From: an uncultured Bacilli bacterium
GTDB taxonomy: Bacteria > Bacillota_I > Bacilli_A > RF39 > UBA660
Reading direction: 5' to 3'
Assembly: GCA_947589105.1 (NCBI GenBank)
Contig: CANQBL010000010.1
Coordinates: forward strand, 1 to 32,063
Length of the DNA: 32,063 nt
Of the stretch, positions 27,119 to 32,063 are shown piece by piece. The notes beneath the pieces were generated by a model, which was not told the origin of the DNA, did not search any database, and was given only the letters and a program-made list of their open reading frames with translations. The position numbers were made by a program, and so were the translations under genes. Within the stretch, counting starts at the first letter, position 1, and each line of letters opens with the position of its first letter.

Positions 27119-27331
27119 AAAAAAAGTTCATCCAAATAAAGGATGAACTTTTAAGTCCACGGTACCACCTTTGTTCTAGATTATTTATCTAGCTCTTAAA
27201 TAAGTTAACGCCTATATTACGTTTTAGCTCCAAAACTGTAATTTGTTATATAAACCATCTTACGTTTTCACCAACCACGTAATCTCTAAAAGAATAGTTT
27301 ATAAACTACTTTTGTTTTTTTCATTGCTAAC
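27119..27331 (-). promoter_or_regulatory. T-box riboswitch (tyrosine) of tyrS
   Basis: The leader has the conserved T-box sequence AAAGGTGGTACCGTGG (minus, 27172-27157). The terminator that follows has 12-bp arms AAAAGTTCATCC and GGATGAACTTTT (27122-27152), then a T-run. Upstream are stem III (CTAGAT/ATCTAG, 27176-27192), a short stem with AACG/CGTT arms, and a stem I closed by CAAAA/TTTTG. The specifier codon is most probably UAC (27240-27238) in the context AATTACAG, which matches tyrosine. The GGTACC bulge can pair with the tRNA acceptor end to form the antiterminator. The total length of about 210 nt is compact. Confidence 0.92.
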
Positions 27332-27337
27332 AAATAT

Positions 27338-27369: not shown

Positions 27370-27768
27370 TTAAGTTAAGCTATCACTATTTTTTCTTAAA
27401 ACATAAGAAGAAGACACTTTAAAATTTTCGTCTTGTAACTTACTTTTAACTTCATTATAAATATACTCAGATAACTCACCTAATCCAAGTCTAATATGAT
27501 TTAAATCTTCACTATTTGCTATTTTATAATTATTACTATCAGTAACTAAACCATTACAATTGTATAAATTTCCATTAATAAGAAGAGCACACTTTGTATA
27601 TGTTTTATCTATCATAACCGTTGCACTTGGAAAAAACATTAATAAAAACATACAAAAATCACTTGAATAATAATCTAATATTTCGCTTATTTCCCCTTTT
27701 ATATTTTTTTGTTTAACAACCAAAGAAAAGATCTCATTAATTTTATTAATTACCAATATTGGATTCAT
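27370..27768 (-). CDS. Unrecognised 132-aa protein at the end of the surface module
   Basis: I recognise no family. It is soluble-looking, with mixed alpha/beta composition: an N-terminal amphipathic helix (3-30), a hydrophobic stretch with C-M-F-L-L-M-F-F-P (about 39-47) that is too short and polar-flanked to be a sure membrane helix, a two-strand region with K-C-A-L-L-I-N-G-N-L-Y-N-C-N-G (two cysteines), and a long C-terminal helix (about 93-114). The start has GGTGAT 6 nt upstream. The gene follows the DUF5305-like gene but is separated from it by a strong terminator, and I see no convincing promoter of its own. It may be expressed by read-through. Confidence 0.7.
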   Translation of the reverse strand: MNPILVINKINEIFSLVVKQKNIKGEISEILDYYSSDFCMFLLMFFPSATVMIDKTYTKCALLINGNLYNCNGLVTDSNNYKIANSEDLNHIRLGLGELSEYIYNEVKSKLQDENFKVSSSYVLRKNSDSLT

Positions 27769-27799
27769 AAATTATATCACCAATGTATACTATGAAAAT

Positions 27800-27851
27800 A
27801 ACCTATTAAAAGTTAAAACAAAAAAAGATTAAAACTAATCTTTTTTTGTTT
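27800..27851 (-). terminator. Terminator of the DUF5305-like gene
   Basis: A 16-bp perfect stem (27816-27831 with 27836-27851) made mostly of A/T with a GATTA/TAATC core and a four-base loop. It overlaps the stop codon. The downstream T-tract on the minus strand is T4 then AAC T4. Confidence 0.75.
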
Positions 27852-29070
27852 GTTGATCTTTTTCTAAATCTACTAGCTTTAAAGTATATCTATAAGTTTC
27901 ATTTTCTGTTTTAACAATAAATATACTCTTTTCCCTTTTATGTATTTCATGGAATATAATTGGTTTTTCAATGTTATCTCTTACGTCTAATAACTCATTA
28001 AAACTATCTACATCAACAACAGCACCATTTATATCTATCATTTTACGAGAATTTACGATAACTCTATCATACTCTTTTAATATCTTAGATAATGTTATAT
28101 CATAAATACTTTTTTTAGACGTTGTTTTCCTTATAAATAATAATAATCTAATTACAACAACAACTAAAATAATTAAAGAAAGTAAACTTAATGCAAATAA
28201 TATACTATTTTGTATACTAAAGTCTTTATAAACTTTTATGTTATCACTATTATTAACTTCCTTATAATCCATACCTATATTAATCATTTGCTCTGTTAAT
28301 GGAATAGTTAACTTCATTGTATCACTTGAGTCTATGCTTTTTATTATATTTCCCTTCTCATCTTTTATTTCTATACATAAGCTTAGCACAAGATTACTAT
28401 CCGCACTAATTGCATACGAATTTTTAAAAGATTTAACAAGATCATTATACTTTGAATAATCTATTTTTATATCTTTATTAATACTAAATCCATTTGAATT
28501 ATCCATCGTAAAATAATCAGGCTCTGTTAATTTATCAGACTTTTTATATATAACCTTTGACTCATCCTTAGAATCCATTACTAAAACATCTGATTTTATA
28601 TAGTACATATAAGTATAATTAATATTTTGATTAATATTAAAGTTATAGTTAAAACTTACATCAATATTATCAATTAAACTAGCTATATACTGCATGTTCT
28701 TATTTAAATATGGTTCATCATAATAATTATTTTCCTTTAAATAAACCTTGTAATCCAAATTACTAGTTTGCTTATATAATACACTACTTCTAGATTTAAT
28801 TGTAATACTACTAACCAAAAGAACAATCGTTAATATAGAAAATATAACTATTAATAATATATTAGCAATAAGCCTTTGATTATAGCTAACATACTTAGTT
28901 TTATTAATATTAGATTCATAATCCAATTTATCACTGTCACTTGCTTTAAACTGTGAGTCTATTTCCTCTGAAACATTAGCTTCCTTTTCTTTTTTACTTT
29001 TTATCATTTCCCCACTCATTATAGCATCAATTGCTTCATCTAGTTTTTTATTCTTATTTTTTTTACTCAT
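27835..29070 (-). CDS. DUF5305-like bitopic/two-helix membrane protein
   Basis: This 411-aa protein has a charged cytoplasmic N-terminus (1-65, lysine and glutamate rich), a membrane helix (about 67-91), an outside domain (about 92-285), a second helix (about 289-315) and a cytoplasmic tail (316-411). The outside part has the DUF5305 pattern: D-Y-K-V-Y-L-K-x-N-x-Y-Y, Y-L-N-K-N-M-Q-Y-I-x-S-L-I-D-N-I, then I-K-I-D-Y-S-K-Y-N-D-L-V-x-x-F. Proteins of this kind are often encoded beside SipW-type signal peptidases, as here: the peptidase lies 11 nt upstream. The biochemical role is unknown. AGGAGG precedes the ATG. The family call is recognition only. Confidence 0.72.
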   Translation of the reverse strand: MSKKNKNKKLDEAIDAIMSGEMIKSKKEKEANVSEEIDSQFKASDSDKLDYESNINKTKYVSYNQRLIANILLIVIFSILTIVLLVSSITIKSRSSVLYKQTSNLDYKVYLKENNYYDEPYLNKNMQYIASLIDNIDVSFNYNFNINQNINYTYMYYIKSDVLVMDSKDESKVIYKKSDKLTEPDYFTMDNSNGFSINKDIKIDYSKYNDLVKSFKNSYAISADSNLVLSLCIEIKDEKGNIIKSIDSSDTMKLTIPLTEQMINIGMDYKEVNNSDNIKVYKDFSIQNSILFALSLLSLIILVVVVIRLLLFIRKTTSKKSIYDITLSKILKEYDRVIVNSRKMIDINGAVVDVDSFNELLDVRDNIEKPIIFHEIHKREKSIFIVKTENETYRYTLKLVDLEKDQQTKKD

Positions 29071-29081
29071 AATACCTCCTA

Positions 29082-30224
29082 TTATCTACTTAACAACTCA
29101 TTTAATGCAACCGTCGGAATTCCAATATATCTTATCTTAATATTAGTTATTCCTATAACTTCTGATTCTTTTACAACCCAAGAATCATTAGTATCATTAT
29201 TATCACCCTTAGTTATAAAATATTTTTTTTCATCTATATTTAGTATTTTAACCACTCTATGAACAATTATTTTATTATCATGATTAAATATTAAAACACT
29301 ACCCTTTTTAATCTCATTTAGTTCTGATTTTTTTAATTTCTTAACTATTACAACGTCTCCTTTTCTTATAATAGGAGTCATTGAACCAGAACCTATTGTT
29401 AAAGCTTGATATTTAAACAAACCACTAGTTAATGTTACTATTATAAACAGTAAAAACGTTATAACCGAATAAAACGCTAACTTCCTATTATTATACCTAG
29501 AACTTTTTACTCTTCTTAATTCAAAATAGTTAAAATTATTATTTAATTTAATCATTATTATAACTGGTAACGCCGTTTTTATAACAACATCTATATATTC
29601 CCCAAAATCCGGAAATATAGGTAACAAATAAGTACTTAATTCCGTTAATAACCTATAAAATATCGCATCTTTGTAACCAACCTTACGAGTTAAGTATATT
29701 AAGAAAATATTCTTCGTAATACTAGGAAAAACAACCAAACAAATCATTTTAGTTAATCCTAAATAAGTTGTAATTTTATAAGTATTAATCATTAAATTAA
29801 CATCAATTAAAATAAATGCTATATACCCAACAATAAAACACAACTTATTACCCCTAGACTTAGAAAACAATTCATACCTTAATAATTCACTAATTACTAT
29901 AAGCAATATCACTGAAAAAGTATTCTTAACAATATTAACAAAAGATAGACTATAACTATTTCTTAAAAAACCAAAAAATAATCCTAAAAAATAAGTTATA
30001 AAATAATAAAGCAAAAGAGAAATTAATATATTTAACAAAACATCTTTCTTATACCTAAAATTATCCTTTTCAAAACCAAATAATATTACTGTTACTATAA
30101 AAAATAGTAATAAAATACCTGTTATTTCATATGTATCTACTATTTTAAATAACAAACTATTAAATAACAATAAAATAAGTAAAACTATTTGTATAATTAA
30201 TAACTTATTATATCCCTTCTTCAT
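29082..30224 (-). CDS. SipW-type signal peptidase I with multi-span N-terminus
   Basis: This 380-aa protein ends in an S26 signal peptidase domain of the SipW/eukaryotic type. Ser281 lies in G-S-G-S-M-T-P-I, and His322 in V-H-R-V-V takes the place of the usual catalytic Lys. K-G-D341-N-N-D follows, and a final strand ends the chain. Such enzymes cleave signal peptides of a small set of exported proteins (TasA and TapA in Bacillus). Here about 230 residues with some seven membrane helices precede the usual single anchor (about 251-268), whereas classical SipW has only about 190 residues. It lies between the BspA-like gene and the DUF5305-like gene. The start has GTGGTGAT. Confidence 0.85.
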   Translation of the reverse strand: MKKGYNKLLIIQIVLLILLLFNSLLFKIVDTYEITGILLLFFIVTVILFGFEKDNFRYKKDVLLNILISLLLYYFITYFLGLFFGFLRNSYSLSFVNIVKNTFSVILLIVISELLRYELFSKSRGNKLCFIVGYIAFILIDVNLMINTYKITTYLGLTKMICLVVFPSITKNIFLIYLTRKVGYKDAIFYRLLTELSTYLLPIFPDFGEYIDVVIKTALPVIIMIKLNNNFNYFELRRVKSSRYNNRKLAFYSVITFLLFIIVTLTSGLFKYQALTIGSGSMTPIIRKGDVVIVKKLKKSELNEIKKGSVLIFNHDNKIIVHRVVKILNIDEKKYFITKGDNNDTNDSWVVKESEVIGITNIKIRYIGIPTVALNELLSR

Positions 30225-30276
30225 ATTATCACCACTTTTTACACTTTTTATTATCTATAAACTTAAAATCTTTTAT

Positions 30277-32063
30277 CTAGTACACTCTAGTACACGTATA
30301 TTTTCCACTAATAGTTTCTTTTTCACAATTAAAGTTTCTTCCATAAGAATTTATTTCTTCCTTAAGCTTTTCATCCGTTACATTTACTTTATTTAAACCA
30401 ATGCAACCAGCAAACATATTAGTCTTATCTGTTACTGCCGAAATATCGAAGCTACTTAAATCTAACGAAGTTAAATGTACGCAATCAACAAACATATATC
30501 TCATATCTGTTACAGCTGAAGTAACAAAGCTACTTAAATCTAACGAAGCTAAACCTCTACAATTATAAAACATATCTCTCATATTTGTTACTGCAGAAGT
30601 ATTAAAGTTACTTACATCTAACGAAACTAAACCACTGCAAACAGCAAACATATAACTCATATCTGTTACTGCCGAAGTAACAAAGCCTCTTACATCTAAC
30701 GAAGTTAAACTACTGCAATTATAAAACATAGTACTCATATCTGTTACTTCCGAAGTATCAAATTTACTTACATCTAACGAAGTTAAACCACTGCAATTTT
30801 GAAACATAGAACTCATATCTGTTACTTTCGAAGTATCAAATTTACTTACATCTAACGAAGTTAAACTATTGCAATTTCGAAACATTTGACTCATATTTGT
30901 TACTTTCGAAGTTTCAAAGCCTCTTACATCTAACGAAGCTAAACCACTGCAAACAGCAAACATATAATTCATATTTGTTACTTCCGAAGTATCAAATTTA
31001 CTTACATCTAACGAAGCTAAACCACTGCAACCATAAAACATATAACTCATATCTGTTACTTCCGAAGTAACAAAGCCTCTTACATCTAACGAATTTAAAC
31101 CACTGCAATTATAAAACATATAACTCATATTTGTTACTTTCGAAGTAACGAAACTACTTACATCTAACGAAGCTAAACCACTGCAATTATAAAACATATA
31201 ACTCATATCTGTTACTTTTGAAGTATCAAATTTACTTACATCTAACGAAGCTAAACCACTGCAATCATAAAACATATGAATCATATTTGTTACTTTCGAA
31301 GTAACAAAGCCTCTTACATCTAACAAAGTTAAACTTTTGCAATTTTGAAACATACGATTCATATCTGTTACTGCAGAAGTATCAAATTTACTTACATCTA
31401 ATGAATCTAAACGCACGCAATCAGCAAACATATAACCCATATCTGTTACCGCTGAAGTAACAAAGCCACTTACATCTAATGAAGTTAAACTTCTGCATTG
31501 ATAAAACATTAAACGCATATCTGTTACTGCAGAAGTAACAAAACTACTTACATCTAACGAAGCTAAACCCCTGCATTCATAAAACATACGATTCATATTT
31601 GTTACTTTCGAAGTATCAAAGCTACTTAAATCTAACGAAGCTAAAACACCGCATTCATAAAACATACGACTCATATTTGTTACTTTCGAAGTATCAAAGC
31701 CTCTTACATCTAACGAAGTTAAACCATTGCATTTAGTAAACATATAACTCATATCTGTTACCGCTGAAGTAACAAAGCTACTTACATCTAATGAAGTTAA
31801 ACTATTGCAATCAGTAAACATATAACTCATATCTGTTACTTTCGAAGTATCAAATTTACTTACATCTAACGAAGTTAAACTATTGCATCCTTGAAACATA
31901 CGACTCATATTTGTTACATTTTTAGTATCAAAATACTCACCAAAATCTACTTTTACTAAGTTAGAAAAATAATAAAATTGATACATTGATGTTGGATTTG
32001 CATACACTACTCCTATTCCACCTACTGTAAGTTCATATTTTCCATTTTTATCACTATCTTTAT
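30277..32063 (-). CDS. BspA-like (DUF285) repeat surface protein, 5' end outside the window
   Basis: The frame is open to the right edge, so the N-terminus is missing; 594 residues are seen. A G-x-Y-E-L-T-V-G-G-I-G-V-V-Y-A-N-P entry strand leads into 20 repeats of 26 residues (19 full). Each has M-x-x-M-F-x-x-C, L-x-S-L-D-V/L, and F-x-T-S-x-V-T-D/N. This is the DUF285 leucine-rich-like repeat of BspA-type proteins, which are exposed on the cell surface and in some species bind host matrix or other cells. The C-terminus (about 45 residues, two extra cysteines) has no LPxTG or membrane anchor, so attachment must come from the missing N-terminus. The next gene is a signal peptidase 52 nt below, with no terminator between. 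Confidence 0.92.
   Translation of the reverse strand, partial: KDSDKNGKYELTVGGIGVVYANPTSMYQFYYFSNLVKVDFGEYFDTKNVTNMSRMFQGCNSLTSLDVSKFDTSKVTDMSYMFTDCNSLTSLDVSSFVTSAVTDMSYMFTKCNGLTSLDVRGFDTSKVTNMSRMFYECGVLASLDLSSFDTSKVTNMNRMFYECRGLASLDVSSFVTSAVTDMRLMFYQCRSLTSLDVSGFVTSAVTDMGYMFADCVRLDSLDVSKFDTSAVTDMNRMFQNCKSLTLLDVRGFVTSKVTNMIHMFYDCSGLASLDVSKFDTSKVTDMSYMFYNCSGLASLDVSSFVTSKVTNMSYMFYNCSGLNSLDVRGFVTSEVTDMSYMFYGCSGLASLDVSKFDTSEVTNMNYMFAVCSGLASLDVRGFETSKVTNMSQMFRNCNSLTSLDVSKFDTSKVTDMSSMFQNCSGLTSLDVSKFDTSEVTDMSTMFYNCSSLTSLDVRGFVTSAVTDMSYMFAVCSGLVSLDVSNFNTSAVTNMRDMFYNCRGLASLDLSSFVTSAVTDMRYMFVDCVHLTSLDLSSFDISAVTDKTNMFAGCIGLNKVNVTDEKLKEEINSYGRNFNCEKETISGKYTCTRVY
30427..31908 (-). repeat. Nineteen tandem 78-bp repeats in the BspA-like gene
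   Basis: The DUF285 units are exactly 26 codons (78 bp) each, with a partial twentieth unit beyond. DNA identity is high. The short linker after the L-D-V strand comes in a few recurrent variants (S-K-F-D, S-S-F-V/D, R-G-F-V/D/E, S-G-F-V) that reappear in non-adjacent units. Confidence 0.9.

Follow-up and report, generated by a model that had tools for sequence, protein, structure and literature searches.

Results

The genes at the end of the window, the whole stretch of 32,063 nucleotides analysed here, are read as an Abp/TasA-like fibre-export cassette whose signal peptidase would also process a chimeric adhesin, probably displayed on or near the fibre, an interpretation of the sequences that we regard as fairly probable. 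The best explanation for the chimera is that it combines the SipW-type signal and beta-sandwich head of a fibre subunit with a long DUF285/PARCEL repeat solenoid, while the small SipW-type subunits encoded beside it are best explained as relatives of AbpX and, distantly, of TasA/camelysin. Since the chimera has the front end of a fibre protein and lies in one four-gene block with the peptidase and membrane partner that usually attend such fibres, the fibre system probably places the repeat protein on the cell surface. Readable from the sequence are the architecture of the chimera, the homology of its head with the small subunits, the conservation of the peptidase-partner pair and the presence or absence of the whole block.

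Gene order and contig join

The window is the entire contig C10 (CANQBL010000010.1) of an assembly of 1.04 Mb in 30 contigs. Four minus-strand open reading frames, encoding a 132-aa protein (U132), a DUF5305 protein, an S26B (ER/SipW-type) signal peptidase and a DUF285 repeat protein, were confirmed at its end, with successive gaps of 66, 11 and 52 nt. A terminator scan found no terminator-like site in the 52-nt gap between the DUF285 and S26B genes. The four genes, the 52- and 11-nt gaps, the hairpin and the lack of a terminator in the longer gap were all as described by a sequence-only reading of this DNA. The DUF285 frame (30277-32061, 594 aa, minus strand) is open at the contig edge and, as the window is a whole contig, it was a break in the assembly that removed the N-terminus, not the cutting of the window. 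No DUF285 repeats were found elsewhere in the assembly outside this protein.

The missing end was located with the N-terminal region of a relative's DUF285 protein (locus L115), which, as a query against this genome, retrieved the start of contig C19. The final 77 bases of the window (31987..32063) are identical to the first 77 of C19, and this stretch is otherwise unique in the genome, a pattern that adjacent contigs from a k=77 assembly would show. Joining the contigs at this overlap unites the 3' two thirds of the gene (30277..32063, minus strand) with its 5' part on C19 (L172:1-777, minus strand). Where contigs part at a k-mer overlap, the assembly graph must have branched or been thinly covered, and the join could in principle be an assembly accident, the DUF285 protein having some other N-terminus; we consider this extremely improbable, since the overlap is exact and unique, the joined frame stays open over 828 aa, the joined cap region resembles that of the intact relatives L140, L165 and L179, and C19 and C10 correspond to the two sides of a single locus in the congener G089.

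Farther upstream on C19, on the same strand, lie two small SipW-type substrates of 201 aa (sub201) and 221 aa, followed by YlbF-like, MiaB and MurD-like genes (named by eye). Extension past position 32063 had been proposed as a check, and it revealed both the SipW-type signal of the BspA-type protein and these substrates. A TasA-like substrate gene just outside the window had been thought to speak against the link between peptidase and repeat protein; the presence of two small substrates bears that objection out in part.

Architecture of the repeat protein

The joined protein starts with MKLKKTYKKNSGKINIIMFFLFCVLTLGLTVGYSSLNKELKISAEAVF; in this stretch a SipW-type signal precedes the short LxI strand motif that the small substrates also have. 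A fibre-subunit-like domain of ~150 aa, a cap (~200-285) and ~20 repeats of 26 aa come next. The repeats match both DUF285 (PF03382, E 3e-140, 459.7 bits) and PARCEL (TIGR02167, E 8e-199, 641.6 bits, 20 repeats), in each case over the cut-off, and they are encoded by 78-bp tandem units (30393..31917, minus strand, 19.6 copies, TRF score 1737). The C-terminus (...SGKYTCTRVY) has neither a transmembrane segment nor an LPXTG-like end. The contrast drawn earlier between a DUF285 repeat protein and a TasA-like subunit fails, since the two are fused in this protein. Counting from the presumed cut, P2' is occupied by Leu, where TasA has an aromatic residue (PMC10269814). The SipW-dependent-type signal profile TIGR04088 gave no match on the chimera up to E 0.1, and matched one of 30 small substrates (1.1e-5).

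When the heads were aligned with the small substrates by HHalign, homology was detected at 99.7% over 167 columns (E 2.4e-25). A profile of the heads retrieved the small substrates and about 30 large proteins; the passengers of such large SipW-headed proteins are Listeria-Bacteroides repeats, DUF6273, dockerin-like domains or DUF285. The small-substrate profile matches the archaeal bundling-pilus protein AbpX (PDB 9sj2/9rhp; E 4.6e-7), and the best score against the TasA/camelysin family PF12389, obtained with a small subunit only, was 19.3 bits, under the cut-off of 22.5. The modelled head of the relative L179 is a confidently predicted beta-sandwich, for which a fold search returned generic beta-sandwiches (Z up to 7.3), with no TasA among the matches listed.

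These data also bear on the possibility that the chimera is a client of the peptidase without being part of a fibre, the head serving for delivery only and the repeat protein being released or tethered to the membrane as a lone adhesin. Such a fate would suit a C-terminus of this kind, and elsewhere in the family plain Sec signals serve to export DUF285 proteins, so that the repeats do not need fibre membership. A plain signal would then have been enough here too, yet the entire subunit domain of ~150 aa, with its conserved strand behind the cut, has been retained, just as in ~30 other large proteins; we therefore hold a non-fibre client to be possible but unlikely.

Heads of other DUF285 proteins

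The readable starts of 45 DUF285 proteins, which are the best-scoring matches and not a random sample, fell into 18 type IV prepilin N-termini (from eight genomes), five SipW-type heads, seven with a SipW-like motif only, two W-variants and 13 others. Among these best-scoring matches, most of the family's DUF285 proteins thus bear heads other than the SipW type; three of the prepilin starts score over the TIGR02532 cut-off. The prepilin N-terminus (GFTLIELL...) was seen in L133, L135-L137, L139, L140, L144, L145 and L150 and, within the same eight genomes, in L157, L158, L162 and L165-L167. A DUF285-bearing open frame of 7120 aa was also noted in a genome that has no S26B match (G038:C2, L146). 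The cap preceding the repeats is common to all kinds of head, and that of the window chimera is close to that of the prepilin-headed L140 (E 3.6e-40, whole protein). This pattern fits a transfer of the DUF285 repeat passenger between fibre heads.

The signal peptidase and its DUF5305 partner

The S26B protein (29082..30224, minus strand, 380 aa) scored 91.9 bits against TIGR02228 (cut-off 51.85). Its catalytic residues, Ser281 (29382-29384) and His322 (29259-29261), are invariant across 28 related sequences, and a search with the catalytic part returned SEC11A/C, from the signal peptidase complex (E 8.5e-20); the assignment to SipW-type peptidases with a Ser-His dyad therefore stands. Against the Bacillus SipW equivalog NF046067 it reached 67.8 bits, under the cut-off of 190, which indicates an enzyme that would work like SipW but is not a SipW orthologue. 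The N-terminal half, about 250 aa, is hydrophobic, and a Pfam search with it gave no convincing family. Residues G81, E113, R116, P202 and P205 are invariant in this membrane half (29475-30224). The same genome carries a shorter S26-type gene and, on contig C9 (L010:6258-11044), a second S26B-DUF5305 cassette which is devoid of DUF285 and has four small SipW-type substrates, three before and one after the S26B gene. Given the shorter gene and the second cassette, the chimera may be processed by a peptidase other than the S26B of its own block.

The DUF5305 protein (27835..29070, minus strand, 411 aa) scored 63.7 bits against PF17231 (gathering cut-off 29). It has a predicted transmembrane segment (63-88), a beta domain (~95-280) that we take to be extracellular, a second transmembrane segment (289-317) and a small C-terminal domain. 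With the AlphaFold2 model (pLDDT 80.6), the fold search gave generic beta-sandwich matches only (TRAP-alpha, E 2.9e-4; RbmA, Z 7.7), and no mention of DUF5305 was found in the literature searched. An A/T-rich hairpin spans its stop codon (27817..27850, minus strand, -13.6 kcal/mol, z -4.4). The terminator scan did not list this hairpin because the stem is almost purely A/T; it likely marks the 3' end of the cassette transcript.

Conservation of the cassette

An S26B match was present in 138 of 145 family genomes, DUF5305 in 74 and DUF285 in 44. Among 80 DUF5305 loci fetched we counted 62 pairs in which a long S26B gene directly precedes DUF5305, with a median gap of 9 nt. Of 60 genes immediately preceding S26B, 52 encode a SipW-type head, versus 11 of 191 background ORFs farther away, both counts mixing profile matches with those of a loose motif regex that also picks up some ordinary membrane proteins. 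Directly downstream of DUF5305, a large SipW-headed protein was encoded in 20 of 61 cases. The pair also occurs, among named loci, in Bacilli, Syntrophomonas and several MAGs labelled Saccharibacteria. Loci L206, L207, L209, L210, L212, L213 and L216, from MAGs labelled Candidatus Saccharibacteria in several studies, are S26B-DUF5305-substrate cassettes.

Across the 80 DUF5305 loci retrieved and a further 46 named loci, only the window genome had a DUF285 gene immediately before S26B. The nearest S26B orthologue (L177, 76% identity) lies in the order substrate-S26B-DUF5305 with no DUF285, and the orthologue of Candidatus Aphodocola excrementigallinarum (L178, 65%) in a pair with neither substrate nor DUF285, so that the direct DUF285-S26B adjacency is a feature of the window genome. 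In L178 (9211-13797) the pair sits behind a uracil-DNA-glycosylase-like gene, at a different place in the genome. The expected conservation of all three neighbours was thus borne out for S26B and DUF5305 and fell through for DUF285.

Such a distribution would be expected if the peptidase and DUF5305 served the small substrates only, the DUF285 gene having entered the operon by chance and its product being processed otherwise; L177 in particular shows the arrangement without it, and L115 alone among the 62 sampled pairs has a DUF285 gene within six genes. That account has to contend with a DUF285 protein that bears the substrates' own head and signal, and with two further cassettes of this type, L115 and L179, that each include a SipW-headed DUF285 protein, and we consider it quite improbable. 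DUF285 proteins with plain Sec signals also lie near the cassette in L078 and L183.

Presence and absence of the block

In the congener G089 a single contig (C15) carries, contiguously, MiaB, YlbF, a 231-aa substrate (sub231), U132 and tyrS. In the window genome C19 carries MiaB, YlbF and the 221-aa substrate, and C10 carries U132 and tyrS; identities with G089 are 74% for TyrS, 62% for YlbF, 47% for the substrate and 38% for U132. This synteny, which holds both contig sides in one locus, supports the C10/C19 join independently. The genes for sub201, the chimera, S26B and DUF5305 are missing between the same flanks in G089, and they therefore form one block that was gained here or lost there. 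The right border lies near a promoter-like site before U132 (TTTTCA-16-TATAAT with TG, 27771..27798, minus strand), and the DNA preceding U132 shares 81% identity with the empty site of G089 across 67 bp. A tyrS T-box leader (27136..27333, minus strand, RF00230, 99.2 bits) lies in the flank. The L091/L218 locus, from the same genus, was considered as a cassette orthologue and dropped, since its S26B shares only 38% identity and G089:C15 provides the true empty site.

U132 itself (27370..27768, minus strand), for which no family was matched, had been counted as a member of the module. In G089 its orthologue lies between a SipW-type substrate and tyrS, so that it belongs to the tyrS side and is ruled out as a member. 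The module proposed from gene order is real in a changed form, comprising substrates, chimera, S26B and DUF5305. That the BspA-type protein is its client is likely, and the link no longer depends on gene order, given the SipW-type N-terminus, the domain homologous to the small substrates and the presence or absence of the block as a unit.

Discussion

From the combined analysis we infer the following scheme. The substrates would be exported by Sec, and S26B would cut behind the GYA/GYS-type end of the signal, thereby freeing the conserved short strand. The small subunits may then polymerise by donor-strand exchange in the manner of TasA, in which, after SipW processing, the N-terminal strand beside the cut completes the next subunit (PMC9674648). 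Through the same head the chimera would join the fibre at its tip, base or side and display its repeats outward. TapA, for comparison, initiates filaments but is not itself a repeating unit (PMC10151520). DUF5305, as the membrane partner of S26B, may aid the peptidase or an assembly step. In C. perfringens, export of the fibre protein BsaA requires SipW (PMC7395162). Against the fibre reading stand the absence of the chimera from the L177 and L178 loci, the Leu at P2', the lack of a TIGR04088 match for the chimera, the merely generic fold matches of the L179 head, the second S26B-DUF5305 cassette and shorter S26-type gene of the genome, and the prevalence of other heads among the DUF285 proteins examined.

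A wider proposal, offered tentatively and rather doubtful as it stands, is that in these gut Bacilli the membrane-embedded S26B and DUF5305 form a dedicated machine for both processing and assembly of Abp/TasA-like fibres, on which large adhesins are interchangeable add-ons sharing a common head, DUF285 having been passed between two unrelated kinds of head, SipW-type and type IV prepilin-type. The present data give DUF5305 a firm context, as partner of a membrane-embedded SipW-type peptidase, and suggest a route by which BspA-type adhesins may reach fibres in uncultured gut Bacilli. That DUF285 repeats occur on both SipW-type and prepilin-type heads points to a general means of mounting adhesins on filaments.

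Our literature search found no paper joining SipW and BspA in this sense. The cassette resembles tapA-sipW-tasA of B. subtilis in having a dedicated ER-type signal peptidase beside beta-sandwich fibre substrates, and in the N-terminal strand that adjoins the cut site (PMC9674648, PMC10151520); it differs in the extra membrane half of the peptidase, which falls short of the SipW equivalog, and in having a DUF5305 partner and an 828-aa adhesin chimera. The sipW-bsaABCRSD operon of C. perfringens likewise unites a SipW-type peptidase, the subunit of a fibre and other secreted proteins, whereas it also contains regulators, and the portion of that report consulted mentions neither DUF285 nor DUF5305 (PMC7395162). 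Archaeal bundling pili share the profile match of AbpX with the small substrates but are archaeal filaments. The DUF285/PARCEL surface proteins described earlier (PMC2996958) belong to the same repeat family as the 20 TIGR02167 repeats of the chimera; unlike those, the repeats in the window sit on the head of a SipW-type fibre subunit.
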